Assembly (NCBI RefSeq): GCF_900141995.1
Contig: NZ_FQZA01000004.1
Span: forward strand, 62,001 to 126,000
Reading direction: 5' to 3'
Origin: Palleronia salina
GTDB taxonomy: Bacteria > Pseudomonadota > Alphaproteobacteria > Rhodobacterales > Rhodobacteraceae
DNA length: 64,000 bases
Shown here: piece after piece, positions 8,705 to 24,307 of the stretch
How positions within the stretch are numbered: position 1 is the stretch's first letter
Layout: each line of letters begins with the position of its first letter
Program-made: the position numbers and the translations under genes
The notes under the pieces: generated by a model
The model's database searches: none
What the model saw: only the letters and a program-made list of their open reading frames with translations
Told to the model about the DNA's origin: nothing

Positions 8705-9721
8705 TTACCACAAGGCCGATTGCGATCCGCCCAGCTTGGAGTTGCCCAGCGGACGATACTCCTCGACGAAAGCTTCGATCTCGGGCGCGTCGAACAGCGA
8801 CAGGTAGGCCTCGGCCCAGGCAAGCTCGAAGCTTTTCAGCTCGTCCTCGCCGGTGGTGAAGGTCTGGGGCTCGCCCGCCTTTTCCTCGACCATCCCGGGC
8901 GCATCGAAGGCAGCGGGAATGAACTCCACCGCGCGGTGGACCGCGCCGTCGCACATCTCGAAGGTGGGATAGCCGTCGTCCTGCAACAGCGCCCCGCCGA
9001 CGACCAGCGGCGCCACCGCGTGGATCTGGTAGTGCAGCGCGCGGGGGCCGCGCTCCATCTCCCATTTCAGCGCGCCGTCCTCGTCGGCCTGGCAGGCCAC
9101 CAGCGCGAAGGTCGTGTGCGCCCAGGCCTTCAGGTAGTCGTTCCCGGCGGCCTCGCCCACGGCGGCGGCGGCGAGCCCCGCCCAGGCGCGCAGGTTGTTC
9201 TGGCTGGCCATGGTGGGCGCCTCGGTGTCGAACCACTGGGTCGCGTGGCGCGCACGCTCGACCAGCCAGCCCTCGATCAGTTCCGCCTGATCGGGGTCAA
9301 TCTCGGCAGCGGACTTGGCCTGGAGATAGGCCAGCGCCATTGCGCCGAAGCGGGACGGCGAGGACAGGTTGGCGTTCATGCTTTCCAGGTCGCTGATCGC
9401 GTCGGCCTCGGCCCAGACGGCCAGCGCGTCGACCACGCAGGCCGCCGCCTCGGCGTCGCCGTCACGGGCAGCGTCGTTGGCCTTGCCCGTCAGCGCGACG
9501 ATGAAGTCGTCAATGGGGCCCAGCGCCGCGTCGACCGCGTCGTTCGACGCCTCGTCGAGATCCGAGCGGTCCTCGCTCTCGTCGGTGTAGCGGCTCCCGT
9601 AGTCGAGCGAGACGACGGGTTCGGCCACCTCGATGCAGCTCACGTCGCCCGCCTCCTGCGCCAACAGTGCTGGCGCGGGCAAGGCGGCGAAAAGCGCGCC
9701 GGTCATCAGGATTCGTTTCAT
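8705..9721 (-). CDS. algL: AlgL-like periplasmic alginate lyase family protein with altered active site
   Basis: A 338-residue secreted protein (signal peptide about 1-21). It matches polysaccharide-lyase family 5/AlgL in its central block ASQNNLRAWAGLAAAAVG and in the ERGPRALHYQ segment (about 223-232) that carries the Arg and catalytic Tyr of the family. AlgL degrades mis-secreted alginate in the periplasm and is part of the alginate export complex. In characterised members the first block reads NNH, with a catalytic histidine; here it reads NNL (residues 175-177), and the N-terminal lysine position seems to be Arg or Tyr. Activity is therefore doubtful. It is the last gene of the operon, 15 bases after the TPR gene, with AAGGAAGGA upstream of the ATG. 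Family call likely, activity unknown. Confidence 0.75.
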   Translation of the reverse strand: MKRILMTGALFAALPAPALLAQEAGDVSCIEVAEPVVSLDYGSRYTDESEDRSDLDEASNDAVDAALGPIDDFIVALTGKANDAARDGDAEAAACVVDALAVWAEADAISDLESMNANLSSPSRFGAMALAYLQAKSAAEIDPDQAELIEGWLVERARHATQWFDTEAPTMASQNNLRAWAGLAAAAVGEAAGNDYLKAWAHTTFALVACQADEDGALKWEMERGPRALHYQIHAVAPLVVGGALLQDDGYPTFEMCDGAVHRAVEFIPAAFDAPGMVEEKAGEPQTFTTGEDELKSFELAWAEAYLSLFDAPEIEAFVEEYRPLGNSKLGGSQSALW

Positions 9722-9736
9722 TGCTCGTATCCTTCC

Positions 9737-12430
9737 TTACTGGATCATGCGCGCGGTCGACGCGGCTGTCTCGTTGCCCGCCTCGGCGGCAGCGGTCAGC
9801 CAGCGGCGCGACTGCGCGGCGGATTGTTCGACGCCCACGCCGTAGGCATAGGCTTGCGACAGCAGGTACATCGCCTCGGCATTGCCACCGTCGGCGGACC
9901 GGCGCAGCAGGTCCGCATAGCGATCGGAGGTGTCGCCCTCGGCATCGCTGTCGCGCACGATCCGCGCCAGTTCCAATTGCGCCACCGCGTTTCCGTTCTC
10001 GGCGGCCTCGGCATAAAGCGCGCGACGGTCTATCTCGGCATTAACGATCCGGCGGACCTGCGGGTCCGAGTACTCGAGGAAATTGAGGATCACGGGGATG
10101 TCCTCGGTATCGGCGATGCGCAGCAGGCGGATCGACATCCGGGCCGTCTCGTCGGCGGTCATCTCGATCTCGCCGTCCTGGCGCAGCGACAGCAGGCGAC
10201 GCAGCCCGACGGAATAGCCGTCATCGGCCGCCGCCCGGTAAAGCGCCAGGGCGCGCGCCTCGTCGGCGTCCCCGCCGCCCAGTTCGCGCATCGCGTCGCC
10301 GATGGCGACCCGTTCCCACCCGTCGCCGCCGGAAACGGCCTCGGCCACGTCGATCCACTGACCGACGGCATCGTCGGCCCCGATCCTCTGCAGCACCCGG
10401 GCATATTCCAGCGCCTTGGAGGTGGTGCAGTCGATCGTGCTGCGGATGCGGTTGCGGTATTCCTCGGTCCGGGAAGCGCTTTCCAGGTAGGGCAGCGCGA
10501 ACAGCAATGCGTCCACGTCGCCGTTGCGCGCGATGGCGTCCGAATAGCGCTGCCAGGCGGCGTCGGGATCGGTTTCGCCGATCTCGATCAGCGTGCGGAT
10601 CGCCGCGCCGTTGCCCTCGGCGGCCAAGTCGCGCGCGAGCGTGACCAGCCGCGCGCGGCGGTCGCCGTCCAGATCCTTCGTGTCCGCCAGGAGCGACACC
10701 AGCTGCGCCCGGGCGCCCGGCTCGCCCGCGTCGATGGCGCGGCCCAGCCGGTCCTCGGCGGCGCCGACATCGCCGCGGTTCAGGGCGAGCTTGGCCTCGG
10801 CCACGAACAGCGCGCCGCCCGCCTCGCGCGTCATACGGCGCATGGCGTCGCTGGCGCCGCCGGGCAGGACTTCGTGGAAATTGGCCAGGGAGCGCGACCG
10901 CATGTTGACGGCCTGCGATTGCAGTCGGGCCAGTGTCATCGGGTCGTCCTCGACCGTCAGCTCGTCCAGCCGTCCGGGATCGACCTCGACGGTCGTGTCG
11001 CCGGCGAAACTTTCCATCCGGGTCCAGTACTCGGCCTCGGACGGGACCGGCGCCACGGCCGAGCGGCAGCGGAAGATCGCTTGCAGATCCTGCATGGGCT
11101 CGGTCTGGCCGTCCACGTAGACGGCGTTGCGCAAGGTCGACACCACGTCGAGCAGGTCCTGCTCCGTCTCGGTCTCACGCAGCATCAGACCGGCCAGCCG
11201 CATCTGCGCCGCCGACAGGGACGGGTCGATTTCCACGGCCGTCCGGTAGAGCTCGGCCGCCCGGTCCGCGCCCGCCCAGCGGCCGTCCTCGACCATCACC
11301 AGGTCGCCGCGCTGCACGTAGGCCCAGCCGGGCGTGTCGGGCGCGTCGATCATGCGATCGAGCGCCGCGGCCAGCCGGTCGCGCCCCTCGGGCCCGTCGG
11401 CCCGGTCGCGGGCGAGGTTCACCAGCCGGATGCGCGCCGTGGGATCGCCGAAACCGGCCGCTTCCTCGTAGAGCGCGCGGGCCTCGGCCAGGTCTTGCTC
11501 GGCCAGCGCACCGCGTTCGAGAATGGCGGCCAGCTGAAGCATGGCGTAAGGCAGATCGAACCCGGCCGCCTGCCGCAGGCTCTGCATCATCAGGTCGTTG
11601 TCCTTCTCGACCTCGATGGCCTCGCGGTGCATCTCGGCCAGGTTCCAGGCGGCGTTGTGGCCGCCGAGATCGGCCGCGAAGCGATACCAGTCCTCGGCCA
11701 GGTCGGGATCCGGCGCGACGGCCTCGCCATCGAGGAACACTGCCGCGATGCGGTTCACCCGGTCGCACAGGCGCGGATCGAGATCGCCCAGCAGGTCGCC
11801 CAGCGCCATGGTCACGGCCACGTCCGGTGCGATATCCCAATCGTCCAGGTCCCGCTCGTAGGACAGCTCGACCATGCGCAGAAGCGACGCGCCGTCGCCC
11901 GCGTAAGCGGCCTGGCGCCACAGGTCGATGGCGCGGTCCTGGTCGCGCTCGACGCCCGTGCCTTCGAAAAGCAGGTCGGCCGCCGTGCGCTTGGCCGAGG
12001 TCGTTCCGCTCGGGGCAATCTCAAGCACCCTGTCCACGAGGCCGGACTCGGCCAGCTCCGCCATCCGGCCGGCGGCGACGAGCAGGTCCAGCCGGTCGAG
12101 CAGGCGGTTCGTCTCGTCGTAGCTATCGACGACCTCAAGCAGCCGGTCATTGGCCGCCTCGATGGTGTCGAACCAGCGTTCGGGGTCGTTCTGGCGCAGC
12201 AGGCGCAGGTCGCGCCGGATCAGCGCGATGTCGCGTCCGCCAACGGGTCCGCCGTCGTAGTCCTGCCAGCGTTCGGTCAGCACGTGTTGCGGCGGGCGCG
12301 GCAGACAGGTGTCGGAGCCTGCCTCGACCCGGGGCGGATCGAACGGCACCGAGACCGGGTCGGCGCGGACCGGTCCCGTCAGGGCGACAAAGCCCAGGGC
12401 GGTGGCGGAAAGGGCGCGTGTGAAGGTCAT
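9737..12430 (-). CDS. Large periplasmic TPR/Sel1-repeat protein, candidate AlgK-like scaffold
   Basis: About 897 residues. The start at 12430 is chosen because GGAGG lies 8 bases upstream; an ATG ten codons earlier lacks a site. The signal peptide (about 1-23) has no lipobox cysteine. The remainder is almost entirely helical repeats of Sel1/TPR type, for example near the C-terminus AEAMYLLSQAYAYGVGVEQS and in the N-terminal third DRAIDLWRQAAYAGDGASLL. No beta-barrel region is visible at the C-terminus, so it is not a BcsC/PgaA-type fused exporter. In Pseudomonas, AlgK is a Sel1/TPR outer-membrane lipoprotein that positions the AlgE porin; this protein is about twice that size. The role is inferred from operon position between algF and algL and from repeat content. 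Confidence 0.7.
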   Translation of the reverse strand: MTFTRALSATALGFVALTGPVRADPVSVPFDPPRVEAGSDTCLPRPPQHVLTERWQDYDGGPVGGRDIALIRRDLRLLRQNDPERWFDTIEAANDRLLEVVDSYDETNRLLDRLDLLVAAGRMAELAESGLVDRVLEIAPSGTTSAKRTAADLLFEGTGVERDQDRAIDLWRQAAYAGDGASLLRMVELSYERDLDDWDIAPDVAVTMALGDLLGDLDPRLCDRVNRIAAVFLDGEAVAPDPDLAEDWYRFAADLGGHNAAWNLAEMHREAIEVEKDNDLMMQSLRQAAGFDLPYAMLQLAAILERGALAEQDLAEARALYEEAAGFGDPTARIRLVNLARDRADGPEGRDRLAAALDRMIDAPDTPGWAYVQRGDLVMVEDGRWAGADRAAELYRTAVEIDPSLSAAQMRLAGLMLRETETEQDLLDVVSTLRNAVYVDGQTEPMQDLQAIFRCRSAVAPVPSEAEYWTRMESFAGDTTVEVDPGRLDELTVEDDPMTLARLQSQAVNMRSRSLANFHEVLPGGASDAMRRMTREAGGALFVAEAKLALNRGDVGAAEDRLGRAIDAGEPGARAQLVSLLADTKDLDGDRRARLVTLARDLAAEGNGAAIRTLIEIGETDPDAAWQRYSDAIARNGDVDALLFALPYLESASRTEEYRNRIRSTIDCTTSKALEYARVLQRIGADDAVGQWIDVAEAVSGGDGWERVAIGDAMRELGGGDADEARALALYRAAADDGYSVGLRRLLSLRQDGEIEMTADETARMSIRLLRIADTEDIPVILNFLEYSDPQVRRIVNAEIDRRALYAEAAENGNAVAQLELARIVRDSDAEGDTSDRYADLLRRSADGGNAEAMYLLSQAYAYGVGVEQSAAQSRRWLTAAAEAGNETAASTARMIQ

Positions 12431-12462
12431 GGTGGGGTCCTCCGGGTCGAGGCGTGTCAAGG

Positions 12463-13080
12463 TCAGTCGGCGTAGGTGCTGTCGGCGGCGACGAGCCCGC
12501 CGTCATCGGTGACGATCACCGTGGTCGCGGTGCCGCGGCGCAGGTCGACCGGGTCGAGGCTGGCCAGCGTCTCGCCGTCCTGGCGCAGCTCGAAGGTCAG
12601 CGTCAGCGGCGCCTTCAGGCCCACCGCATCGTGGCCGTTGGGCGCGACGTCGGACAGGGCGGCCGTCTCGGCCTCGGTGGCGTAGAGATCGAAGCTCTCC
12701 ATCTCGCCGAGGTTGTAGAGCAGCAGGTCCGCCTGGGCCGGGCTTTCGGTCACGCCGTCCTCGATCAGCGGCTGCGCCTCGGCCGAGGACAGCACGGTGT
12801 AGTGGGTGCTGGCGCCGACCTCGACGGTGGTCTCCTCGTCGCCGACGGAGATTGTGACTTCGCCCGGGGAGACCTCGGCATAGGGCGTGAGGCCCGCGTC
12901 GGTGGGATCGAGCACGGTGCCGTCGACCGTGACATTGTTCGCCTCGGGCGCGATCACGCGCAGGAAGGACGCGTCGGGCGAGGACGGATCGGGATAAAGC
13001 CCCTCGTCCTGCGCCAGCGCGGGCAGCGCGGGCAGCAGGGCAACGGGAAGGCTGAGCAGAAGCGTTCGCTTGGTCATCAT
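12463..13080 (-). CDS. algF: AlgF-like alginate O-acetylation protein
   Basis: A 205-residue periplasmic protein (signal peptide about 1-23). It follows the AlgF pattern: a DEGLYPDPSSPDASFLRVI start of the mature chain, then two small beta-rich modules. AlgF is required for O-acetylation of alginate together with AlgI, AlgJ and AlgX; its exact job is an adaptor rather than a catalyst. The start is the first of two tandem ATGs, overlapping the algX stop as ATGA, with AAGGA upstream. The stop is followed after 32 bases by the TPR gene. Length and context agree with the family (about 216 residues in Pseudomonas). Confidence 0.8.
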   Translation of the reverse strand: MMTKRTLLLSLPVALLPALPALAQDEGLYPDPSSPDASFLRVIAPEANNVTVDGTVLDPTDAGLTPYAEVSPGEVTISVGDEETTVEVGASTHYTVLSSAEAQPLIEDGVTESPAQADLLLYNLGEMESFDLYATEAETAALSDVAPNGHDAVGLKAPLTLTFELRQDGETLASLDPVDLRRGTATTVIVTDDGGLVAADSTYAD

Positions 13081-14393
13081 GTCTGGGGTCCTTTCACGGT
13101 ACAGGTGGAGAGCGTCGCGCCATCCTCGGCCGGCTGGTCGAGCTCGACGCGCACTTGGGTGTAGTCGTCGCGCCAAAGCGGGCGCGCGTACTCGTAAAAC
13201 CAGCGGGTGGGTCCGACTCGCTCGGAGCGCTGGATGGTCGCGTCGCCGGTCAGGCCGTCTTCCGTCGTGAAGCTCAGCTCGGCCCGGCGGCCGTTGGCGC
13301 TGCCGGTATCCACGCCGAGATAGGTCTCGGGCGTGAACCGCTCGGCCGGCAGATCGGCGGTCAGGACGCGCGGCGCAGGGTTGGCCGTCTCGAGCGGCTC
13401 GCACGACGCGCCCGCCGCCGCGATCAGCTCGCGCAGCGGGCGTTCGCCGAAGCCGCCCAGGTTGTTGTAGATCGGGTTTTCCCAGACCAGCACGCGCGGC
13501 GCGGTCTCGCGGAATGCTCCGGACAGCAGGAACGACGTGATGCCGCCGAACTGGTTGCCGCCGGTGATCGAGTAGTTGGCGACCTGCGCCTGGGTCTCGA
13601 CCGACAGGGAGTCCTCGAAGTTGAACGTGCCCTCGTCCGACATCGACGTGCCGACCAGCGCGATGGGCGGACCCGCGCTGTCGGCCGCGAAGATCCCGCC
13701 GCCACCGGCGTCGCCGCCGACCTCGGTCGTCTCGAACCGCTCGGTCCGTGGCAGCGGCAGGCTTTCGCGGCAGAAACTCTGGATGTGGCGCCGCAGGGCC
13801 GAGTCCATCGGCTTGGTTCCGGTCGAGGTCATGTCGATCTCGGTCGTGGGCATGTCGTCCAGGGCCGGAGTCTCGTCGATCCGGTCGGCGATGGCCCCTG
13901 CCACGGCCCGCGCGCCGGCGGGCGTCCAGTGGAAGTCGAGCCCGATGAAGGGCGCGCGGTCCTCGGGCAGCGCCCGCATCGCGGCGACCGTGTCGATCGC
14001 GGCCACGCCGGCGGCGTCAAGCTCGGACAGGAACGCGGCGTAGCCAGTCTGCGCCAGGTCCTCGTCGTAGCCGTAATTGGCGGCCGCATCGGGCAACTTT
14101 CCAGGCATGGCGAGGCTCTTCGTCGGGACGGGCACGTAGATCAGTTGCGTCCCCCGCTCGGCGAGGACGCGGCTCAGGGTGCCCACCGTCTCGGCCGCGG
14201 CGGTCGACAGCGGGTGATAGGTCCGCATGTTAAGGTTCAGGCGGTAGAAGAACCCGTCCTGCCCTTCCAGCACGGGCAGTTCGTCGGCGGTGGCAAGCCC
14301 GCGGCAGTCGTAGGCCGAGGCGTCCTGTGCGGTGGCCAGCCCGGTGCCGGCCACGAGAAGCCCCGCGGCGAGGGGAAGCGATCGGAAGCTCAT
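13077..14393 (-). CDS. algX: AlgX-like alginate O-acetyltransferase
   Basis: A 438-residue secreted two-domain protein. The N-terminal SGNH-like domain carries the Asp-x-His pair in DFHWTPAGA (D153, H155) and the nucleophile serine in GTSMS (about 250-252). The C-terminal region (about 320-438) is beta-rich and corresponds to the carbohydrate-binding module of AlgX. Pseudomonas AlgX (474 residues) acetylates mannuronate residues and binds the polymer during export. All catalytic positions that I can recognise are retained, in contrast to several other proteins of this operon. The signal peptide spans about 1-23 and cysteines at about 30 and 208 may form disulfides. It overlaps both neighbours by ATGA. 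Confidence 0.85.
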   Translation of the reverse strand: MSFRSLPLAAGLLVAGTGLATAQDASAYDCRGLATADELPVLEGQDGFFYRLNLNMRTYHPLSTAAAETVGTLSRVLAERGTQLIYVPVPTKSLAMPGKLPDAAANYGYDEDLAQTGYAAFLSELDAAGVAAIDTVAAMRALPEDRAPFIGLDFHWTPAGARAVAGAIADRIDETPALDDMPTTEIDMTSTGTKPMDSALRRHIQSFCRESLPLPRTERFETTEVGGDAGGGGIFAADSAGPPIALVGTSMSDEGTFNFEDSLSVETQAQVANYSITGGNQFGGITSFLLSGAFRETAPRVLVWENPIYNNLGGFGERPLRELIAAAGASCEPLETANPAPRVLTADLPAERFTPETYLGVDTGSANGRRAELSFTTEDGLTGDATIQRSERVGPTRWFYEYARPLWRDDYTQVRVELDQPAEDGATLSTCTVKGPQT

Positions 14394-15115
14394 TGCGTGT
14401 CCTTTCCGGTGTCGTCGTTGCGGGCGTCGAGCTGCGCGAGCAGCGAGCGCGCGGCGGTGCGGGTGCCCAGCGTGTCGCCATCCTCGGCGGCCAGGGACAG
14501 GATCCCGCGCAGCCGATCGGGTTCGACAGCGCCCGGGTTTTGCAGGGCGTTCGACCCGATCCTGAGGGCGGCCGCGCCGTCACCGGCCTCGGCCCGTTCC
14601 AGCAGCAGCCTCCGGGCCCGGTCGGGATGGCGGCCGAAGGGTTCGCCGGTCTCGTAGAACCGCGCCAGCGCCTCGCCCGCCTCGGGATAGCCCTGCACCG
14701 CCATGGTGCGCATGGCGTTCTCCAGGTGGTCGAGCCGCTTGTCCGACACGTCGAGCCCGGGGCGTTCGAGGATGCGGATCAGCGGGCCCAGCGCGTAGTC
14801 GCGCCCGGTGAAGACGGCCGAGGCGTAGTAGAGCGCGGCATCGCCAACCAGGTCGTCGGCGTTGTCGAGCTCCATCAGGCGGTTCGCGTAGCGGAACGCG
14901 GCCAGGCCGTCGCCCGCATCGGCGAGCGCCCGCATCTCGGGGAAACTCAGGTAGCGGTCGTTCAGCATCCGCTTGCGGTCGCGCTGCAGCTGCCATGTGG
15001 GCAGATCGTCCGTCCGGGTCACGCGGTCGTCGATGACCGCCTGCGCGGCCAGGGGACCCGCGAGCGAAACGGCGATAAGGCCCGCGAGCGCCGCGGGAAG
15101 GCGTCGATCAGCCAT
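14390..15115 (-). CDS. Periplasmic Sel1-like repeat protein, second AlgK candidate
   Basis: A 241-residue protein with a signal peptide (about 1-25, AGPLAAQ cleavage region) but no lipobox. The mature part is helical with Sel1-like repeats (AVQGYPEAGEALARFYETGE and ERAEAGDGAAALRIGSNAL). It lies between algJ and algX, overlapping algJ by 8 bases and algX by ATGA, so it is tightly co-translated with the acetylation genes. It may scaffold the periplasmic complex in the way AlgK does in Pseudomonas, but it is much shorter than AlgK and lacks the lipid anchor. The assignment of role is inference from position. Confidence 0.65.
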   Translation of the reverse strand: MADRRLPAALAGLIAVSLAGPLAAQAVIDDRVTRTDDLPTWQLQRDRKRMLNDRYLSFPEMRALADAGDGLAAFRYANRLMELDNADDLVGDAALYYASAVFTGRDYALGPLIRILERPGLDVSDKRLDHLENAMRTMAVQGYPEAGEALARFYETGEPFGRHPDRARRLLLERAEAGDGAAALRIGSNALQNPGAVEPDRLRGILSLAAEDGDTLGTRTAARSLLAQLDARNDDTGKDTQ

Positions 15116-16178
15116 TGCTGGCCTCCTCGGTGTCGGTGTGTTTCGGCGCGCCCAGGTAACGGACCGGGAATTCCCAGATCACGTGCGCGGGCGGCGCATC
15201 GGCGAAGGCCGGGTCGGAAAGAACATCGCGCATGGGCGCGATCGGGCCCCGGCCCTCTTCGGCCAGGTTCAGGATGTCGCGCCCGAGCGCGATCTTGAGC
15301 GCGGGGACGAAGCTCCAGGCCTCGTTCGCGCTGTAGCTCGTGCCGACGAGCACCGTGTCGATGGGGTCGTCGTCGGAGGCGAAGATGCCGCCTTCCGTCG
15401 CGTCGGCTTCCTCTGCCACGTAAGGGGTGACCCGCTCGGGTCCAAGCCCCACCCGGGGCGCGAAATCGTCGGTGGTGACGAACGAAACAAGGTCACCGAT
15501 GAATTCTTCGGGTCGTGCCGGGACCTTGGCGAACTCCTTGTCACCACGAGAAATTTTTTCGGAACCCGCCACGGCCTCGGCCACGTCGGCGGCGCCCGCA
15601 GGGGTCCAGTGCGTGTCGCGGGTCAGGAAGACCGGATCGCCGTCCACATCGGCCAGCGCGGGGCGGGTATCGACACTTTCGACCCCGGCCTCCTGCAGCG
15701 CGGCGCGGAAGGCGCGATACTGCTCTTCCATGGCCGCACCGGCCTCGGCATCGCCCCGGTCGCGGTAGATGTCGATCTTGGCCGGGACCGGCACGACGGT
15801 CAGCTCGCTGCCCAGCGCATCGAGCTCGGCTTCGACCTCTTCAATGATGCGGGTCGCGGTCGCGATCTCGGGCGTCGTGGCGCGCTGGAACTCCTCGTCG
15901 GAGAACAGCCAGCCATCCTCGCCCGCCGTGACGCCGTCGCGCCCCTCGCCGATCAGCGCGTAGCGCGCCGCGCCGATCAGGCCCACGGCCGTCTCGCGGT
16001 GGGGCTGCGCCTGGCCGTAGAGCCCGTCCAGCGACAGCGCCGCGCGGCCGGTGACCACGTCGCCCTCGACCTCGCCGGGCAGCCCCTCGCCGAAGATGGC
16101 GAGGTTGACGACCACGGCGTAGCCCAGGAACAGGATCGGGACGCTGTAGCGTATGGTCTTCAGGATCGTCTGCATCAT
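15108..16178 (-). CDS. algJ: AlgJ-like membrane-anchored O-acetyltransferase
   Basis: A 356-residue protein with one N-terminal membrane anchor (about residues 9-29) and a periplasmic SGNH-like acetyltransferase domain. The Asp-x-His pair is in DTHWTPAGA (D188, H190) and the serine in GTSYS (about 281-283). AlgJ accepts acetyl groups passed across the membrane by AlgI and is needed for alginate acetylation. It is homologous to the N-terminal domain of AlgX, encoded two genes downstream, but lacks the carbohydrate-binding module, which separates the two. The start is the first of two tandem ATGs, with AAGGA 5 bases upstream, 9 bases after algI. Confidence 0.85.
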   Translation of the reverse strand: MMQTILKTIRYSVPILFLGYAVVVNLAIFGEGLPGEVEGDVVTGRAALSLDGLYGQAQPHRETAVGLIGAARYALIGEGRDGVTAGEDGWLFSDEEFQRATTPEIATATRIIEEVEAELDALGSELTVVPVPAKIDIYRDRGDAEAGAAMEEQYRAFRAALQEAGVESVDTRPALADVDGDPVFLTRDTHWTPAGAADVAEAVAGSEKISRGDKEFAKVPARPEEFIGDLVSFVTTDDFAPRVGLGPERVTPYVAEEADATEGGIFASDDDPIDTVLVGTSYSANEAWSFVPALKIALGRDILNLAEEGRGPIAPMRDVLSDPAFADAPPAHVIWEFPVRYLGAPKHTDTEEASNG

Positions 16179-16187
16179 GTCGGTCCT

Positions 16188-17609
16188 TCAGAACTGGAAG
16201 TAGAGGAAGGGTGAGAAGCTCTGCTCGGCGAGCTTCAGGATCGTGAGCGTCGCCAGCGCGGTGACCGCGATGGGCGGAACGATGGCGCTGGTCGCCGTCA
16301 GCGTGCCGTCGGGACGCGGCGACAGCGGTCCCTCCACCGCGCGGCCGAGCCAGGGCTCGATCATCGCCACGAGGATGGCCAGGATCAGCACGGCGACGCT
16401 TTCGCCGGTGATCTCGAAGGCCGCCGCCGGTGACAGCGCGATACCGTTGGCGCCGAACATGCCCGCGAAGACCTGCCCCGCCTCGACCACGGATGTCGCG
16501 CGGAACACGACCCAGCCAAGCAGCACGACGATCAGCGTGCGCAGCAGCGCGGCGGTCGAGCGGGATTTGGCCCAGCCCGAGAACCGCTCCCACGCCAGCC
16601 AGGCGCCATGCCAGAAGCCCCAGATCACGAAGGTCCAGGCCGCGCCGTGCCAGAGGCCCCCCAGCAGCATGATCGTCATCAGGTTGACGTAGGTGCGCAC
16701 CGGACCCAGGCGGTTGCCGCCCAGCGGGATGTAGAGGTAATCGCGCAGCCAGACCGACAGCGAGATGTGCCAGCGGCGCCAGAACTCGGTGATCGAGCGC
16801 GAGATATAGGGCGCGTTGAAATTCTCGGTGAAGCGGAAGCCCATCATCATGCCGAGCCCGATCGCCATGTCGGAATAGCCCGAGAAATCGAAGTAGAGCT
16901 GCATCATGTACGCCACGGCCCCGGCCCATGCGAGCGCCATGGACGGTTCGGGCGTCGAGAAGGCGAGGTCCGCCAGAGGGGCCACGGCATCGGCCAGCAG
17001 CACTTTCTTGGCGAGGCCGATGAAGAAGCGCATCATCCCGTCCGAGAACATCTGGACCGAGTGGGTGCGGTGGCGGAACTGGTGGGCGAGGTCCTTGTAG
17101 CGCAGGATCGGCCCGGCGATGAGCTGCGGGAACAGCGCGATGAACGCCGCGAAGTCGAGCGGATGCACGTCGTCGGGCGCGTCGCCGCGATAGGTGTCGA
17201 CGAGATAGCTCACCGACTGGAACACGTAGAACGACACGCCGATGGGCAGGATGATCTGCCAGTGCACGCCGATGGCGTCCGGTGTCGTCCCGACAAGCCC
17301 GGTCAGGCTGTCGAGGAAGAAGTTGAAATACTTGAAGAAGCCCAGCACCGCGAGGCAACCCGCCACGCCGATCCCGGTCCAGACCCTGGCGATCCGGTCG
17401 GTCGCGGCATGACGGATCATGCGGCCGGTGATCCAGGTCCAGGCCGTCGTGCCGATCAGCAGCAACAGGAAATCGACCCGCCACCACGCGTAGAAGACGT
17501 AGGAGACGCCCAGCAGCGTCAGCGACTTCCAGCGGCCCGGCGTCAGGTAGTAGAGCGCCAGCGCCAGCGGCAGGAACAGGAACAGGAAGGTTTCAGAGGA
17601 AAAGACCAT
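16188..17609 (-). CDS. algI: AlgI-like MBOAT acyl transporter for polysaccharide O-acetylation
   Basis: Polytopic membrane-bound O-acyltransferase of 473 residues that brings acetyl groups to the periplasmic face for transfer to the polymer. The N-terminus MVFSSETFLFLFLPL is characteristic of AlgI. The two family histidines are present: WRRWHISLS (H281) and LWHGAAWTF (H321, equivalent to the essential His of AlgI). Length and about 10-12 hydrophobic segments fit the family. Its ATG overlaps the algG stop by one base (TGATG). Similar MBOATs serve other acetylated polymers, so the alginate assignment rests on the operon. Confidence 0.92.
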   Translation of the reverse strand: MVFSSETFLFLFLPLALALYYLTPGRWKSLTLLGVSYVFYAWWRVDFLLLLIGTTAWTWITGRMIRHAATDRIARVWTGIGVAGCLAVLGFFKYFNFFLDSLTGLVGTTPDAIGVHWQIILPIGVSFYVFQSVSYLVDTYRGDAPDDVHPLDFAAFIALFPQLIAGPILRYKDLAHQFRHRTHSVQMFSDGMMRFFIGLAKKVLLADAVAPLADLAFSTPEPSMALAWAGAVAYMMQLYFDFSGYSDMAIGLGMMMGFRFTENFNAPYISRSITEFWRRWHISLSVWLRDYLYIPLGGNRLGPVRTYVNLMTIMLLGGLWHGAAWTFVIWGFWHGAWLAWERFSGWAKSRSTAALLRTLIVVLLGWVVFRATSVVEAGQVFAGMFGANGIALSPAAAFEITGESVAVLILAILVAMIEPWLGRAVEGPLSPRPDGTLTATSAIVPPIAVTALATLTILKLAEQSFSPFLYFQF

Positions 17610-18976
17610 CAGGTGGTGCCCTCTCCGGAACAGGTGTCAAAAGCGACCTGCGCGGCGTCGCGGCGCAGGGGCGTGGGGTCGAGCGTGCGGACGCCGTCGA
17701 CGCTCAGCTCGTCCGTGTCGGCGCGCAGGAAGGCGGGCGTCATCTGGTCCAGGTCGCCCGACAGCAGCCGCGGGCGCTGGTCGCGGAAATCGTTGGCGTG
17801 CAGGCGAACCTCGGCCAGGCCGGTGCCCCGCAGACCCATGCGGTTGCCCGCGAAGGTGCTGGAGGTGACGAGCACGCGCGTCTCGGGGCGTTGCCGGTGG
17901 ATCATCAGGCCGGGCCCGTCATTGTCGACGAGGCGGCTGTCGCTGACGATGGCGGTGCCGGCGCCGCGCATGGCCAGGCCCGCGCCGTTGTTGCCGGCGA
18001 TCTGGACATCCTGCATGAGCACGCAGGTCGCCCCCTGCGCCAGCGTGGCGCCGGACCCGTCGAAGCCGTGCACGGCCACGTCCGACAGCCGCATCGCGCG
18101 GCTGGTATCGTCCACGCGCAGGCCCTTGCCCTGCCCGCCGTCGAGGTCGACATCCACAAGACCCATCCCGGTGACGCCGGACAGGTGCAGCGCCTGCGGC
18201 CCGCCGGTGTCCCGCACCGAAAGGCCCGCCAGGGTGCCGCCATCGACATCGCGCAGCATCAGGCCGGTGCCCCGCGCGCCGTCGATGGTGTTCTCGCTCA
18301 GATTCACGCCGTCCAGCCCTTGCAGGACCACGCCGCGCATGTCCCTGAAATCGTTGCCGGTCATCGCTGCCGGGCTGCCAAAGCTCATCAGGCCCCTGCC
18401 GCCCAGGAACAGCCCGGCGCTGTAGGGCCGGTCGCCATAGCCGAGACCGGTGAGGGTCGCGTTCTTCAGCGACAGGCTTTGCGGGCCGAGCGCCGCGATG
18501 AAGGGGCGGAACCCCTCGATCTCGGGGTGGATGTCCGGCCCCGCGGCGACGGTCGCGCCGTCCACCGCGAGTTGCCCGAAGGCCAGGACATAGCTGCCCG
18601 CACCGCGCGACAGCTCAAGCCGGTCGCCCGCTTCAAGGCGCAGGGACGCGCCCTGCAGAAGCACGATGGGCAGATGAGCCGAAAAGCCGTCCGCGCTCCG
18701 GGTCAGCACGTCCGGGTGACCCTTGGCGGCCAGAAGATCGTCCAACTCGGCCAGGGTCACGTCGCCCGCGCTCAGGTAGATCGCGTCGCCGTCCCGCGCC
18801 TCGGCCAGCAGGTCGGAGTCGATTTCGACCCCGCCGCCGGTGGCGAGCTGCGTCAACGCCAGCCGCACGCCCGAGACCGAGGCGCGAACCTCGTCCTGGG
18901 CCACGGCGGGCGCGGCCAGCGGCAGCGCGAGCGCCGCCGCCAGGCCGAGACGGGTGAGCCAATCAGGCGCGCGCAT
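17609..18976 (-). CDS. algG: AlgG-like periplasmic parallel beta-helix protein; epimerase motif not found
   Basis: A 455-residue secreted protein (signal peptide about 1-27). The start at 18976 has GGAAGG 8 bases upstream and overlaps algA by 14 bases. An upstream domain (about 30-150) precedes a right-handed parallel beta-helix with repeated strand-turn units such as GLMLRDVDGGTLAGLSVRD. The segment GFRPFIAALG (about 155-164) and following residues parallel the EFRPF region of Pseudomonas AlgG. AlgG converts mannuronate to guluronate and protects the polymer from AlgL in the periplasm. The hallmark DPHD motif is absent: the equivalent turn appears to read GTGLMLRD (about 237-242). The protein may be a scaffold without epimerase activity. 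Confidence 0.75.
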   Translation of the reverse strand: MRAPDWLTRLGLAAALALPLAAPAVAQDEVRASVSGVRLALTQLATGGGVEIDSDLLAEARDGDAIYLSAGDVTLAELDDLLAAKGHPDVLTRSADGFSAHLPIVLLQGASLRLEAGDRLELSRGAGSYVLAFGQLAVDGATVAAGPDIHPEIEGFRPFIAALGPQSLSLKNATLTGLGYGDRPYSAGLFLGGRGLMSFGSPAAMTGNDFRDMRGVVLQGLDGVNLSENTIDGARGTGLMLRDVDGGTLAGLSVRDTGGPQALHLSGVTGMGLVDVDLDGGQGKGLRVDDTSRAMRLSDVAVHGFDGSGATLAQGATCVLMQDVQIAGNNGAGLAMRGAGTAIVSDSRLVDNDGPGLMIHRQRPETRVLVTSSTFAGNRMGLRGTGLAEVRLHANDFRDQRPRLLSGDLDQMTPAFLRADTDELSVDGVRTLDPTPLRRDAAQVAFDTCSGEGTT

Positions 18977-20369
18977 ACCGCTTGCCTTCCCACGGCGCGT
19001 CGGCGTCGTCGTCGCCAAGGTCGATCTCGAAGATCCGCAGCGGATCGTCGCCGGTGTTCCACAGCTCGACCGAGCTGCCGGGCGCGACGTTCACGTTCTG
19101 CCCGGGGCTGAAATCGTGCACGGGTCCGCCGTTCTTCCAACGGCCCTGCCCGTCCGACACGGCCAGCAGCTTGCCGCCCGACGCGGTGCCGCGGAAGGTC
19201 GCGGATTCGCCCACGTCCAGCGTGCGGCGCGACACGGCCGGCACGGCCCTGCCGCCCTGGCCGATATCCACCGGCGCCGACTCGGAATGGCGCGCGACCT
19301 CGCTGCGGCCGTCGGCCTTCAGGCGCGTCACCGCGTCCTTCACCTTCTGGGCGTTGGCGTGGTTCGTCACGAGAAGCGCGTCGGGTGTGTCCACCACGAT
19401 CACGTCGTCCATGCCGATCACGGTCACCAGCTTGTCGCCCGCGCGGATCAGCGAATTGCGGGTGTCGAAGGTCATGGCCTCGCCGCTGGAGACGTTGCCG
19501 TCGTCGGTCTTCGGGCTGATCGAATGGATGGCGGTCCACGCCCCCACGTCGTTCCAGTCCACCGAAACGGGCGCCACGGCGACGCGGTCCGAGCGTTCGA
19601 AGATCAGGCGTTCCGTCGGCTCGTTGGCGGCGTTGCGGAACGGTGCCTCCGACAGCTTCAGGCCGGTCTCGGTCACCTCGGCGTCGTCCATCGCCGCGCG
19701 GACGGCGGCCAGGGTGTCGGGATCGTGCTTGGCGAACTCGTCGATCAGGACATCGGCGCGCATCATCGAGATGCCCGACGCCCAGAGCGTGTCCCCCCCG
19801 GCCACCAGGCGCTCGGCCTCTTCGAGGGCCGGCTTCTCGATGAAGCGGCTCACCTCGTACAAGCCTTCCTGCTCGTCCGTGGGCGCGCCGCAGGTGATGT
19901 ACCCGAAGCCGGTCTCGGCGTGTTTCGGCACTACGCCGAACAGCACGATCCGTCCCGCCTCGGCGCCGGGGCGCATGGCAGTGACGACGGTGTTCATGTC
20001 GCCCTCGATCTTGTGGTCCGAGGGCAGCACCAGCATGGTCGCGGACGGATCGTCCTTGGCCAGCGTCAGCGCGGCGGCCAGGACGGCGGGGCCGGTGTTG
20101 CGGCCCACCGGTTCGCCCACGAAGCGGGCCGGCGTGTCGATCGCGGCAAGCTGGTCGCGCACCAGAATCTCTTCCGAGGCGGCGGCGATCAGCAGCGGGT
20201 CGGCGAACCCATCGCCGCGGTGCCGCGCGACGGTCGCCTGCAGGAAGCTCGGGCCGCCCACGCCGTCAACGGATTGAAACTGCTTGGGTTGGGCGACGCG
20301 GGACATCGGCCAAAGGCGTGTCCCCATGCCGCCCGACAAAATGACGGGATGGATAATGCGGCTCATCAT
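18963..20369 (-). CDS. algA: AlgA-like mannose-1-phosphate guanylyltransferase with degenerate isomerase domain
   Basis: A 468-residue protein. The N-terminal nucleotidyltransferase has the signature GGMGTRLWPMSR (about 14-25) and RFIEKP (about 166), as expected for making GDP-mannose from mannose-1-phosphate and GTP. In bifunctional AlgA/ManC enzymes the C-terminal cupin carries YRPWG and QxHxxRAEHW for mannose-6-phosphate isomerase activity. Here the cupin-like region (about 370-455) has neither; the corresponding part reads GGKLLAVSDGQGRW. The isomerase half is therefore probably inactive and mannose-6-phosphate would need another source. The first of two tandem ATGs overlaps the alg44 stop as ATGA. 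Confidence 0.88.
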   Translation of the reverse strand: MMSRIIHPVILSGGMGTRLWPMSRVAQPKQFQSVDGVGGPSFLQATVARHRGDGFADPLLIAAASEEILVRDQLAAIDTPARFVGEPVGRNTGPAVLAAALTLAKDDPSATMLVLPSDHKIEGDMNTVVTAMRPGAEAGRIVLFGVVPKHAETGFGYITCGAPTDEQEGLYEVSRFIEKPALEEAERLVAGGDTLWASGISMMRADVLIDEFAKHDPDTLAAVRAAMDDAEVTETGLKLSEAPFRNAANEPTERLIFERSDRVAVAPVSVDWNDVGAWTAIHSISPKTDDGNVSSGEAMTFDTRNSLIRAGDKLVTVIGMDDVIVVDTPDALLVTNHANAQKVKDAVTRLKADGRSEVARHSESAPVDIGQGGRAVPAVSRRTLDVGESATFRGTASGGKLLAVSDGQGRWKNGGPVHDFSPGQNVNVAPGSSVELWNTGDDPLRIFEIDLGDDDADAPWEGKRYARA

Positions 20370-21496
20370 TGGTCTCCATTCTGGGTAATGCGATTGAAAA
20401 TCGGCAGGACGGTTTCGTCCCGGAAGGCGCGCGCTTCGGTCAGCGCTTCGCCGGTGAGAGTGGTCCAGTCGACGCCGAACGCGTCGCGCGTGACACTGAG
20501 CGCCGCCACCTGGCCGGCGGTGCCATCGGGAAGGTCGATGGACGGCACGAGGTTCGTGCGCACCAGCCCATCGGACCCCACGGCGCCCGGCGCGCGGAAG
20601 CCTTCGGCCAGCGTCGCGCGGAATTCGGCGCCACCGGGCAGCGTCACGTCGACACCGCCGGTCTGCTGCACTTCGAACAGAAGCTCCTGCGGCAGGCGTG
20701 CCTCGATGGTCAGGGCGGCGTCGTCGGGCGACACGGCAAACAGCGGCTCGCCGGCGAGGACGGTGCTGCCCTCGGTGACCGAGATCGGCTGCGCCACGCC
20801 GTCGATCGGCATGGCGATCGACAGCGTTTCGCCGTCCACGGTGTCGAGCGCGAAGAGCACGTCGCCGGCCTGGGCCTCGGCGTCGATGAAGCTGATCTGG
20901 CCGTCCGCGGTGGCGCGGATTGTCTGCCCTTCGGGCACGACGCGGCCGGGAGCGGCGATGTCGGTGGTGAACAGGCGCGCCTGCATCAGGCTGACGGCCA
21001 GGGCGATCAGCGCGACGGTCAGCGCCAGGACCACCAGCGTCGCGGCGCCGCTGCGGACGCGCTGACCGATGGTCGGCTTGCCCGGCGCACCGCTGCCGCC
21101 GTTCTTGGGCTGGGCCAGCGCGCCCGACCGGATCAGGCGGCCCGAGCTGGTCAGGTCACCCGAGATGTAGTCGTTCAGGACCTGGCGCAGCTGGGCGGAG
21201 TGGTCGCCGGTCGGCTCGGAGAAGACCAGCACGCCGGTGTTGTCGTCGATCACGCGGACCTGCGCGGCGGGCGACAGGGCCAGCTGGAAGCCGGGGAAGT
21301 CGAAGATCAGCCGCACGATGTTCTGGGTGCCGTCGATGCCCCGGTCGATCAGGCCGGTGACCTGCGCCGTGGTCATCGACAGGCCGCCGCCGGAATAGCG
21401 GCGTCCGTCGATCACCGCGGTGAACGGGATGTCGATCAGCGGGTGTTCGTTGCCGGCCGAAAGCGGCGCGGGGGACGTGTCGGGTGCATGTGTCAT
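20366..21496 (-). CDS. alg44: Alg44-like polymerase co-factor (PilZ-like domain plus membrane-fusion domain)
   Basis: A 376-residue inner-membrane protein. The N-terminal cytoplasmic PilZ-like domain (about 18-115) is followed by one membrane segment (about 150-172) and a periplasmic HlyD-type membrane-fusion region (about 180-320). In Pseudomonas, Alg44 binds cyclic di-GMP through RxxxR and DxSxxG and switches on Alg8. In this protein the first arginine pair is replaced by HPLIDIP and the second motif by YSGGGLSM, so c-di-GMP binding is uncertain. The gene sits between alg8 (21 bases upstream) and algA (ATGA overlap), the conserved partner position for Alg8. Assignment is by domain order and context. 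Confidence 0.85.
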   Translation of the reverse strand: MTHAPDTSPAPLSAGNEHPLIDIPFTAVIDGRRYSGGGLSMTTAQVTGLIDRGIDGTQNIVRLIFDFPGFQLALSPAAQVRVIDDNTGVLVFSEPTGDHSAQLRQVLNDYISGDLTSSGRLIRSGALAQPKNGGSGAPGKPTIGQRVRSGAATLVVLALTVALIALAVSLMQARLFTTDIAAPGRVVPEGQTIRATADGQISFIDAEAQAGDVLFALDTVDGETLSIAMPIDGVAQPISVTEGSTVLAGEPLFAVSPDDAALTIEARLPQELLFEVQQTGGVDVTLPGGAEFRATLAEGFRAPGAVGSDGLVRTNLVPSIDLPDGTAGQVAALSVTRDAFGVDWTTLTGEALTEARAFRDETVLPIFNRITQNGDQ

Positions 21497-21517
21497 TGGG
21501 TGCGTCCTGTCGGTCGT

Positions 21518-22981
21518 TCAGAGAAGTCCGGTCGCGAGCGCCGCGCCGAGTGTGAGCCAGCCCAGCGCGAGGCCGTGCATGTAGGTGGAGGAGGCCGAGC
21601 GCAGCCGCGCGCCCAGCGGCATCCGCGCCGCCGCCTTCTTCGAGGCCTGGCGCGTCCATTTCTGCCGGTCGAGCCGGAACAGCGCCGAGCTCTTGACCGA
21701 GGCGCCGACGATCTGCCCGAAGTACAGCAGCGGCGCGTAGACGATGGGGAAGCCGCCGCCCCGGAAGGTCGAGAGCATCCAGCAGAAGACGTAGCGGGTG
21801 AACATGACCCAGGCGATGTAGGCGGGGATCACGGCGGGCGTCGCGAAGAGCGCGGTCAGCGCGATGGAGATCGGGCCGAACAGCGTGGTCCAGATCGACA
21901 CGCGCTGGTCGAGGATCGACCACCATGTGAAGAACCCGATCCGCGCCGGTCCCAGCCCCAGCGCGCGCCCGTTGGTGCGCAGCATGTTGCCGAACCACCG
22001 CTTCATCAGCGCCACGGCGCTTTCGAAGAAGCCCGGCATCGGCTGGTCCTCGTACGAGACGCAGCGCACGTCCGGCAGGTAGGTCATGTGGAAGCCGCGG
22101 CTGAGCAGCCAGAACCAGGTCGACTTGTCGTCGCCGGTCAGGAAGTTGATGCGTCCCAGCCGCCAGTGGTCGATGTGGTCGGACTGCACCTGGCGGATGA
22201 AGGTCGGGTCGGTGGCCAGATCCGCGCGGAAGACCGACATGCGGCCCGTCAGCGTCAGGACCCGGCCGCCGAACGCCATGGACGACATCATCATCTGGCG
22301 CTGCATGAAGCGCAGGTCGAACCAGTTGCGGAACAGCCAGTCATTCGGGATCTCGACGGATTCGTCGGTGGTCAGCGCACCGACGCGGTCGTCGGTGAAG
22401 AAGGGCGCCGCGCGCTCGACGATGTCGGCGGGAACGGCGCTGTCGCCGTCCACGAACAGCATGATGTCGTCACGCCGGGGCGCCTCACGCTGCAACAGCC
22501 GCAGCGACCGGGCGATGGCGTCGCGTTTCCCCGATCCGGGGATCTGGTCGATGATGAAGCGGACATCGGGCATGTCCGCGCGCCGCGCCTCGAACAGGTC
22601 GCGCAGCACCCGCAGGTCGGCCCCGTCCACCACCGAAGCGACGATGGTGGCGCCACCGGGAGACCGGCGGGCGGCCTCGAAGATGGAGCCGTAGACCGCG
22701 GTCGTCACGCCGGGTTCGATCTTGAAGGTCGTGACCATGAAATAGGCGTGCGCGGGCACGGCCCGTTCCGCATAGGCCGCCTCGGCCCGCGCGCGGCGCC
22801 GGGGATAGATCCACCGGATATAGGCCGTCGCGCGCAGAAAGTTCAGGGTGGCCCATCCATACCGCCACAGGCCGATCGCGCCGAGCACCACGATGGCTTC
22901 TTCGGCGGCGGCGAAGCTGGTGTCGCGCACGGCGAGCGCCAAGGCCAGGAAGGCCGCGATATAGATGAGATGACCCAGCAT
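21518..22981 (-). CDS. alg8: Alg8-like polymannuronate synthase (GT2 glycosyltransferase)
   Basis: A 487-residue processive family-2 glycosyltransferase with N-terminal and C-terminal membrane segments around a cytosolic catalytic domain. Motifs: the DGDS metal/UDP-site acid (VDGDSAVPADI), the GDDKSTWFW catalytic base region typical of Alg8, and a KRWFGNMLR block in place of QxxRW. It polymerises mannuronate from GDP-mannuronate and passes the chain to the periplasm. These blocks are closer to Alg8 than to cellulose or curdlan synthases, which supports the alginate-type assignment. It is 6 bases downstream of algD and upstream of alg44, the same order as in Pseudomonas. Confidence 0.92.
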   Translation of the reverse strand: MLGHLIYIAAFLALALAVRDTSFAAAEEAIVVLGAIGLWRYGWATLNFLRATAYIRWIYPRRRARAEAAYAERAVPAHAYFMVTTFKIEPGVTTAVYGSIFEAARRSPGGATIVASVVDGADLRVLRDLFEARRADMPDVRFIIDQIPGSGKRDAIARSLRLLQREAPRRDDIMLFVDGDSAVPADIVERAAPFFTDDRVGALTTDESVEIPNDWLFRNWFDLRFMQRQMMMSSMAFGGRVLTLTGRMSVFRADLATDPTFIRQVQSDHIDHWRLGRINFLTGDDKSTWFWLLSRGFHMTYLPDVRCVSYEDQPMPGFFESAVALMKRWFGNMLRTNGRALGLGPARIGFFTWWSILDQRVSIWTTLFGPISIALTALFATPAVIPAYIAWVMFTRYVFCWMLSTFRGGGFPIVYAPLLYFGQIVGASVKSSALFRLDRQKWTRQASKKAAARMPLGARLRSASSTYMHGLALGWLTLGAALATGLL

Positions 22982-22987
22982 GGCGGC

Positions 22988-24307
22988 TTACCAGCAGATG
23001 CCCTGGTAACCCGCGTCGCTGACGACGTCCGGGTCGATACGGCCGAGGTCGACCACGCGGCGGTTGCCGAGGCTGCCTTTCAGCCGCTCGGTCACCTCGG
23101 GGTACTTGTTGCCCACGACGATGACTTCGCTGTCCTCGATCAGCTGGTCGATATCGTCTTCCATCCGCTCGGACAGGTCGGGGACGACGGCGTTGCCGCG
23201 CCCCACGGCGCCCGGATCGTTGGCGAAGGCGGTGGCGACGTAGGGGTCGTAGACGCGCACCTCCTGGCCGCTGTCGATCAAGCGCGCGGCCAGGTCGGCC
23301 AGCGGGCTTTCACGCAGGTCGTCGGTGCCCGACTTGAAGCTCACGCCGACAAGGCCGACGGCCTTCTTCGACGCCGCGCGCACCATGGTCTCGGCCCGCT
23401 CGATCTGGGCGTCGTTGGCCTCGAGAATGGCATTAAGAAGCGGCGTGGCGATGCCCGAGGACTGGCCCACGGCCTTCAGCGCGCGCACGTCCTTGGGCAG
23501 GCACGAGCCGCCGAAAGCGAAGCCGGGCCGCAGGAAGGCCGGCGACATGGCGACCTTGGTGTCGGAACACAGGATCGACATCACCTTCTGGCCGTCGAGC
23601 TCGTTCGCCTTGGCGATGTTGCCGATCTCGTTGGCGAAGCTGATCTTGGCCGCACGCCAGCTGTTCGACGTGTATTTCACCATCTCGGCCGTTCGGATAT
23701 CGACCTTGTTCATCTCGCAGGGCAGGTCCTGGTTGATCTCGGTCAGGATCTGTTCGGTCTGCTCGTCGAGGCTGCCGAAGACGATCAGGCCGGGATCGGC
23801 GTAGTCCTCGATCGCGGTGCTTTCGCGCAGGAACTCGGGGAAATAGCCGACGCCGAAATCACGGCCGGCCCGCTTGCCCGACGCCTTTTCCAGCGTGGGA
23901 ATGCAGACCTCTTCCATGGTGCCGGGCACGATGGTCGAACGCATGATGACGGTGTGGCGGTCCCGCTTGGCGGCGATGGCACGGCCGATATCCTCGCAGA
24001 CGGACACCACGAAATCGAGCCCGACCGACCCGTCCGGCGCCGACGGCGTGCCGACGCAGACGAAGGACGCGTCGGTCTTGGCGACGGCCTCGGCGGCATC
24101 GGTGGTGGCGGTCATGCGGCCGCTTTCGGCCATCTCGGCGACGAGGGCATCGAGGCCCTTCTCGACGATGGGCGCGCGGCCGGCATTCAGCCCGTCCACC
24201 TTGTCCTGGTCGAGATCGACGGCAATCACCTCGTGGCCGTCGCGGGCCAGGCACGCCGCGGACACGACGCCCACGTAGCCGATCCCGAAAACACTGATCT
24301 TTGTCAT
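22988..24307 (-). CDS. algD: GDP-mannose 6-dehydrogenase
   Basis: Oxidises GDP-mannose with 2 NAD+ to GDP-mannuronate, the committed step of alginate-type synthesis. The protein has 439 residues (Pseudomonas AlgD 436). The N-terminal NAD fold is GIGYVGVVSAACL (about 8-20), and the catalytic cysteine lies in FGGSCLPKDVRAL (C269), the AlgD form of the UDP/GDP-sugar dehydrogenase motif. The start at 24307 has AAGGA 7 bases upstream; the open frame extends 34 codons further without a site. It is the first gene of the 15.6-kb operon. UDP-glucose dehydrogenase is the main alternative, but the motif form and operon favour GDP-mannose. Confidence 0.93.
   Translation of the reverse strand: MTKISVFGIGYVGVVSAACLARDGHEVIAVDLDQDKVDGLNAGRAPIVEKGLDALVAEMAESGRMTATTDAAEAVAKTDASFVCVGTPSAPDGSVGLDFVVSVCEDIGRAIAAKRDRHTVIMRSTIVPGTMEEVCIPTLEKASGKRAGRDFGVGYFPEFLRESTAIEDYADPGLIVFGSLDEQTEQILTEINQDLPCEMNKVDIRTAEMVKYTSNSWRAAKISFANEIGNIAKANELDGQKVMSILCSDTKVAMSPAFLRPGFAFGGSCLPKDVRALKAVGQSSGIATPLLNAILEANDAQIERAETMVRAASKKAVGLVGVSFKSGTDDLRESPLADLAARLIDSGQEVRVYDPYVATAFANDPGAVGRGNAVVPDLSERMEDDIDQLIEDSEVIVVGNKYPEVTERLKGSLGNRRVVDLGRIDPDVVSDAGYQGICW

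Follow-up and report, generated by a model that had tools for sequence, protein, structure and literature searches.

The window analysed here, a stretch of 64,000 nucleotides from the Palleronia salina genome (contig NZ_FQZA01000004.1; genome of 3.57 Mb in 30 contigs), carries at positions 8705-24307 a cluster of genes whose products resemble the machinery for alginate biosynthesis. Twelve open frames with no internal stop run leftward, on the minus strand to which all window coordinates given below refer, and neighbouring frames range from 21 bases apart to an overlap of 8 bases, the AlgA/AlgG pair excepted, where the overlap amounts to 56 bases with the TTG start as used and is smaller with an inner start. 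Read in the leftward direction the frames encode homologues of AlgD, Alg8, Alg44, AlgA, AlgG, AlgI and AlgJ, a short Sel1/TPR-type protein, homologues of AlgX and AlgF, a long Sel1 protein and a homologue of AlgL. Eleven of the twelve proteins fit at least one Pfam or NCBIfam model agreeing with the assignment, the best matches being to TIGR03026 (386.7 bits), GT2, HlyD_3, NTP_transferase with the ManC beta-helix, Beta_helix, MBOAT, ALGX (twice), AlgF (45.2 bits), Alginate_lyase (77.9 bits) and Sel1. An initial annotation had described twelve tightly packed genes in an order unlike that of Pseudomonas, and both points hold: algA has moved forward, and an extra Sel1 gene lies between those for AlgJ and AlgX.

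In Pseudomonas and Azotobacter the genes are arranged algD-8-44-K-E-G-X-L-I-J-F-A, an order also found in loci L131-L134. Among 248 genomes of the family Rhodobacteraceae searched with Alg8, 34 gave a match with an E value of 1e-30 or lower, and 18, the host's included, one at 54% identity or more (counted from the table); the one same-genus genome searched gave no Alg8 match. A scan of species genomes returned 233 Alg8 relatives, and the best 80 loci kept from these comprise 56 of type A (with AlgI, AlgJ and AlgX), 10 of type B (AlgX without AlgI, AlgJ and AlgF) and 14 unassigned, many of the last being short contigs or contig ends. The order D-8-44-A-G-(I-J)-Sel1-X-(F)-Sel1 extends with few departures from the Rhodobacterales to Rhizobium, Agrobacterium, Devosia and Roseibium, and AlgL comes next in all twelve of the further stretches L148-L159 (L160 ends too early). 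The window has the type A order AlgD-8-44-A-G-I-J-Sel1-X-F-Sel1-(L) together with the lost residues described below. Judged by Alg8, the named organism closest to the window is Palleronia pelagia (98%), which with Loktanella salsilacus belongs to type A, while Marinovum algicola represents type B. The suggestion that the cluster forms a distinct lineage of the system is upheld.

The motif counts that follow come from alignment-free searches in which Pseudomonas-type proteins served as positive controls. Excluded beforehand were locus L032, which nearly duplicates the window, and all proteins whose query coverage was less than 50%. The Pseudomonas-type AlgG rows failed this coverage filter and were re-added by hand for four of the five genomes, the Alg44 rows likewise number four, and the AlgG of L135 was tested only by the lineage profile. 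L099 and L141 are the same genome, which is counted twice, also among the 15 AlgL rows and the 12 AlgX rows of type B, and L093 and L153 are apparently the same contig.

The AlgD homologue (22988..24307), a predicted GDP-mannose 6-dehydrogenase, scores 432.7 bits over nearly its full length against the P. aeruginosa GDP-mannose dehydrogenase 1mfz, compared with 239.7 bits against the best UDP-glucose dehydrogenase, and its catalytic Cys269 is kept in 81 of 81 lineage rows. With UDP-glucose dehydrogenase as root, the AlgD tree joins it to Pseudomonas-type AlgD and sets it apart from the proteins of a third kind of cluster, type C, with a support of 86 that lies under the program's line of 95 and with long branches flagged. 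A UDP-sugar dehydrogenase, the assignment that would have spoken against an alginate-like system, was put aside on the 1mfz scores, the cysteine and the rooted tree. The Alg8 homologue (21518..22981), a GT2 polymerase, shares 40% identity with the Alg8 of five Pseudomonas-type operons (E 1e-100 to 1e-113) and keeps DxD, GDDK and RW, seven residues present in 83 of 83 lineage rows; NodC gave only 20 bits, and the window's Alg8 alone matched none of the PDB sequences at E 0.001. A polymerase of cellulose or hyaluronan type was put aside on sequence scores and not on a rooted tree, the Alg8 tree being rooted at its midpoint with cellulose and hyaluronan synthases outside its sample. With both proteins falling among Pseudomonas-type homologues, the description of the machinery as alginate-like is supported.

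The AlgA homologue (18963..20369) retains its mannose-1-phosphate guanylyltransferase domain. It matches TIGR01479 with 332.0 bits over residues 6-364, below the model cut-off of 372.95, and is the sole protein of the genome to match; the G, G, R and P of the nucleotidyltransferase signature are kept in 75 of 75 lineage rows. The C-terminal cupin region (about residues 364-468; 18966..19280) has lost the phosphomannose isomerase (PMI) motif H.HR.EHW, found in none of the same 75 rows, as opposed to 5/5 Pseudomonas-type and 3/3 type C proteins, so that of the two activities of a bifunctional AlgA only the guanylyltransferase has its signature. The only PMI candidate found elsewhere in the genome, and a candidate only, is an AGE-family protein on contig 8, whose gene adjoins that of a TRAP-type (tripartite ATP-independent periplasmic) binding protein, as read from open frames. 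The phosphoglucomutase/phosphomannomutase (PGM/PMM) matches in the genome look by eye like glucose-type PGM and GlmM, with no model confirmation.

In the Alg44 homologue (20366..21496) a PilZ-fold domain is followed by a transmembrane segment and a HlyD-type periplasmic domain, as indicated by HlyD_3, AlphaFold and Foldseek. The AlphaFold model (predicted local distance difference test, pLDDT, 87.0; predicted template modelling score, pTM, 0.54) matched the PilZ domain of P. aeruginosa Alg44 in Foldseek (4rt0, 4rt1 and 4xrn; TMt 0.72-0.79), its other half resembling membrane-fusion proteins, and the family profile also retrieves these three entries (E 0.0016 to 0.0024). The domain (about residues 15-120; 21137..21454) is nevertheless degenerate: RxxxR followed by DxSxxG occurs in none of 78 lineage rows, one of them (L067) a fragment or in the wrong frame, against 4/4 Pseudomonas-type proteins, and singly the motifs RxxxR and [DN]xSxxG occur in 11 and 5 of the 78. 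Because the fold is kept and the motifs are gone, it is a PilZ domain minus the ligand motifs for cyclic di-GMP (c-di-GMP). By their sequences Alg8 and Alg44 are the inner-membrane polymerase pair. At Ile231 and Gly233 the window's Alg44 departs from the CxC pair of cysteines found at these positions in 97% of lineage rows and in the Pseudomonas-type reference.

The AlgG homologue (17609..19018) presents a right-handed beta-helix from which the epimerase motif has been lost. An alignment of 36 lineage sequences retrieved 4nk8, 4ozz, 4ozy and 4nk6 as the top PDB matches with 137 to 138 bits (137.9 for 4nk8), followed by other mannuronan epimerases and NosD at 37 to 42 bits, and a profile built from the lineage only gave 151-176 bits on five Pseudomonas-type AlgG proteins, that of L135 never having been in the alignment. 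By these profile scores the protein is a genuine AlgG homologue. The site aligned with DPHD, whose histidine is the proposed base of AlgG (PMC4444821), reads M-L-R-D (18248..18259), and DxHD is found in 0 of 74 lineage rows against 4 of 4 Pseudomonas-type rows. The columns conserved at 80% or more consist mainly of Gly, Leu, Phe, Pro and Ala, an Asn ladder and two Cys, together with a C-terminal block of N409, D410, Q414 and R417; no other acid or base reaches that level. AlgG may accordingly be read as a beta-helix scaffold rather than an epimerase.

The active site is altered in the AlgL homologue (8705..9721), a PL5-type protein with 77.9 bits to PF05426 and 77.8 bits to 4ozw. Leu177 (9191..9193) replaces His202 of AlgL in 15 of 15 lineage rows, against His in 5 of 5 Pseudomonas-type rows, and His234 (9020..9022) replaces the substrate-binding Tyr259 in 14 of 15 (one gap), where the five Pseudomonas-type rows all have Tyr; NNHxxW is correspondingly found in 0/15 and 5/5 rows. 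No row has lost Trp205, and Arg249 and Tyr256 are each present in 14 of the 15, the remaining row having a gap. For P. aeruginosa AlgL, the H202A and R249A proteins were reported to have no detectable activity in vitro and Y259F about 30%, and the strain carrying H202A grew like its control (PMC8829089). The histidine at position 259 may take over the work of His202. AlgL-like matches in further stretches number 13, of which that of L164 (28%, adjoining an Alg8 of 39%) is without the Leu motif, and of the remaining 12, two went undetected by a second pattern drawn around Tyr256.

The initial annotation took the polymerase and acetylation residues to be intact, which alignment of the lineage rows confirms. 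The AlgI homologue (16188..17609), an MBOAT acyltransferase (PF03062, 108.5 bits), keeps both His, in 60 of 61 rows (one gap) and 61 of 61; the AlgJ homologue (15108..16178), an SGNH acetyltransferase (ALGX, 221.5 bits), keeps D and H in 60/60 and S in 59/60 rows; and the AlgX homologue (13077..14393), a predicted mannuronan O-acetyltransferase, keeps D153, H155 and S250. The last matches 4knc with 107.1 bits over residues 26-309, and a match ending at 309 lends no support to retention of the carbohydrate-binding module. AlgF (12463..13083, coordinates of the frame, with the start codon inside it) was assigned by family membership only (PF11182, 45.2 bits against a cut-off of 34.4).

Type B clusters supply a natural control for loss of the acetyltransferase residues. 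The D-H-S of AlgX is intact in all 57 loci with AlgI, AlgJ and AlgF, whereas all 12 loci that lack the three proteins, and none of those 57, have other residues for both His and Ser; one locus, L098, has AlgF and an AlgX with D-H-S kept but no detected AlgI or AlgJ, and fits neither group. On both trees, which took in nine of the 12 type B rows, type B corresponds to at least two changes of type, Martelella standing apart from the Rhodobacterales group. Because loss of the AlgX residues goes with loss of AlgI, AlgJ and AlgF, residue loss tracks loss of function here, and since AlgX stays while its site goes once the acetyl supply has been lost, the same reading was applied to AlgG.

The long Sel1 protein (9737..12460; 907 aa; PF08238, 70.3 bits) is a probable scaffold in AlgK's place with weak similarity to AlgK, and the short one (14390..15115), likewise weakly similar, is kept in place in most loci and has no Pfam or NCBIfam match at E 0.001. 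Searched against a handful of proteins, profiles of both families match Pseudomonas-type AlgK weakly, and because these matches are weak neither protein is called AlgK. AlgE (PF13372) was found neither in the host genome nor in the 17 other cluster-bearing genomes of the family, as compared with four of four Pseudomonas-type genomes. The locus had been called complete-looking, a description that is not supported: AlgE is absent, AlgK is matched weakly through Sel1 repeats, and AlgG, the PMI part of AlgA, AlgL and the PilZ domain of Alg44 are without their defining residues.

Taken together, these features are probably best explained by an alginate-derived, synthase-dependent exopolysaccharide system that makes O-acetylated mannuronan, a reading we hold with moderate confidence. 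The likeliest product would be O-acetylated poly-beta-D-mannuronate, made with an Alg44 outside c-di-GMP control; the earlier proposal of an acetylated polyuronate as a likely product is supported. In such a system the intact domain of AlgA would form GDP-mannose, which AlgD would oxidise to GDP-mannuronate for polymerisation by Alg8 and Alg44 to poly-beta-D-mannuronate, and AlgI, AlgJ and AlgX would O-acetylate the chain in the type A subtype. As AlgG seems to survive only as a beta-helix scaffold, the chain would not be epimerised in the periplasm. Alg44 would act as a copolymerase without c-di-GMP binding in its usual mode, so that control is probably transcriptional, exerted perhaps by the products of two genes for LuxR-type (GerE) regulators that lie upstream of the operon on the same strand (24509..25144, PF00196 58.3 bits; 25151..25810, PF00196 52.8 bits). 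AlgL, its active site rebuilt, would handle polymer in the periplasm, the Sel1 proteins would stand in for AlgK, and the chain would leave by an outer-membrane route other than AlgE. A broader proposition, advanced more tentatively, is that of a widespread natural mannuronan machine, shared by a conserved lineage of Alphaproteobacteria, that makes acetylated or plain poly-beta-D-mannuronate, with no periplasmic epimerase, no c-di-GMP gating of the copolymerase, a non-AlgE exit and a PL5-like AlgL whose catalytic histidine has moved from 202 to 259.

A number of observations weigh against acetylated mannuronan as the product, or against the lineage as drawn. Close relatives of the window's Alg8 are over-represented in the survey, and completeness is below 90% in three of the 18 genomes that gave no AlgE match. 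The genome of L136, an alphaproteobacterial cluster outside the family that keeps DxHD and the Alg44 motifs, is also without AlgE (PF13372); AlgE absence is therefore not unique to the lineage, just as retention of the motifs in L136 means that their loss does not characterise the class. Likewise, an AlgG-like protein of L138, a cluster outside the lineage in another family of the phylum, lacks DxHD, so that this loss alone does not define the lineage; its AlgL keeps NNHxxW. The window's own proteins are divergent, AlgG having 22-30% and Alg44 23-24% identity to Pseudomonas-type proteins with a BLAST match missing for each in one of the five operons, and AlgG alone retrieved no PDB chain at E 1. 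The C-terminal block of AlgG (N409, D410, Q414, R417) could be another site. No type I phosphomannose isomerase was found in the genome by TIGR00218 and PF01238 searches for manA. Finally, secreted RTX beta-helix enzymes linked to the clusters could add guluronate (G) residues outside the cell.

This last point leads to the rival view that the final polymer is ordinary alginate with G, epimerised extracellularly by secreted RTX beta-helix enzymes in the manner of the secreted AlgE epimerases of Azotobacter. A gene for a secreted RTX right-handed beta-helix protein adjoins 18 of the 56 type A loci, one of the 14 unassigned and none of the 10 type B loci, counts that are lower bounds because the available flanks end near the cluster. 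L084 and L148 are among the type A clusters with such a neighbour, which in L148 lies downstream of AlgL, and a relative is encoded on another contig of the host genome (G000:C13:229362-230990; L168, L176), with 50% identity over residues 50-618 and 54% over the catalytic part. In the two RTX proteins scanned, Pfam detects no more than the RTX part or a weak carbohydrate-binding module. A model of the catalytic part (pLDDT 88.3) does match the A-modules of AlgE6 and AlgE4 (E 1.5e-4 and 2.1e-4), alongside RbmB and a PL6 alginate lyase, but the fold search ranks a phage-type capsule lyase and tailspikes above all of these (E 5e-13 to 1e-10, with TMq reaching 0.60), and a PDB profile search placed a tailspike first with no epimerase among its six matches. 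Given also that 38 of the 56 type A loci have no such neighbour within their limited flanks, ordinary alginate appears unlikely, and any role of the RTX protein on the polymer would be a guess from position.

Somewhat less likely still is a different uronan, of other linkage or mixed sugars, with the AlgG and AlgL residues lost as the substrate changed. That both proteins have lost the residues acting on alginate fits this view, as does a relative of the PF14099 polysaccharide lyases adjoining 8 of the 10 type B loci and none of the 56 type A loci (L153:14331-14999, L101:7328-8593), one plasmid counterpart being annotated 'heparin lyase I family'; against it, AlgD is clearly of the GDP-mannose type, Alg8 keeps all named residues and no second sugar-nucleotide pathway lies in the cluster. 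The loss of several catalytic sites and the patchy distribution (18 of 248 family genomes, and not the single same-genus genome) might also be expected of a decaying, unused operon with drifting residues. We regard this as highly improbable and put it aside, since all twelve frames are open, gene order is kept across orders, the polymerase and acetylation residues are nearly invariant over 60-83 sequences and the same AlgL changes are fixed in 14-15 rows.

The proposed mannuronan system can be set beside several known ones. With the Pseudomonas/Azotobacter operon it shares homologues of AlgD, Alg8, Alg44, AlgG, AlgX, AlgL, AlgI, AlgJ, AlgF and AlgA together in a single operon, as well as the residues for polymerisation and acetylation, and it differs in being without AlgE, in its weakly matched AlgK, the additional Sel1 gene that separates AlgJ from AlgX and its forward algA, and in the loss of the AlgG DPHD, the PMI motif, AlgL His202 and the c-di-GMP motifs of PilZ. 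The type C clusters of Rhodobacterales (L142, L143 and L145) are similar in content, with Alg8 at 36-38%, AlgD at 38-41% and AlgA at 30-33% identity, AlgX in three of three and AlgI and AlgJ in two of three, but unlike the present lineage their AlgA keeps the PMI motif (3/3) and they form a separate branch in both trees. Atypical alginate operons that have lost algKE and parts of the modification machinery were reported by Bundalovic-Torma et al. in 2020 at the level of gene presence (PMC7112194); the accessible portion of that paper names deep-sea bacteria, and neither active-site loss nor the present lineage is among the features described there. Mannuronan-making algG mutants, in which a mutated AlgG is kept and polymannuronate made (PMC4444821), offer a parallel to the expected product, although these are laboratory strains, whereas the present lineage is a natural one in which the condition has become fixed.

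According to the part of a 2015 review that was available, a natural producer of mannuronan was yet to be identified (PMC4444821), and the question of the product can therefore be tested directly in this lineage, which names candidate strains for mannuronan production. A literature search of titles and the beginnings of abstracts, with subscription papers largely outside it, returned no description of the lineage. If the proposed product is correct, a marine bacterium would naturally make acetylated mannuronan and so be the kind of producer then called unidentified. The lineage also supplies a naturally occurring Alg44 that has kept its PilZ fold minus the c-di-GMP motifs, and an alginate-type system without AlgE.

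Some further observations concern the spread of such clusters. In two annotated records most of the cluster genes carry generic names. The stretch read for L138 (G428) encodes AlgI, AlgJ, AlgX, AlgL and the AlgG-like protein, with no AlgD or Alg8 match, and one genome (G183) has two clusters, L140 and L141, one with AlgI, AlgJ and AlgF in a stretch where AlgD and AlgA were not found, the other of type B. Alg8 relatives are also present on 14 PLSDB plasmids, and a 54 kb Tateyamaria plasmid (L185; NZ_CP019317.1) carries a type B-like cluster adjoining type II secretion genes, among them that for a secretin.

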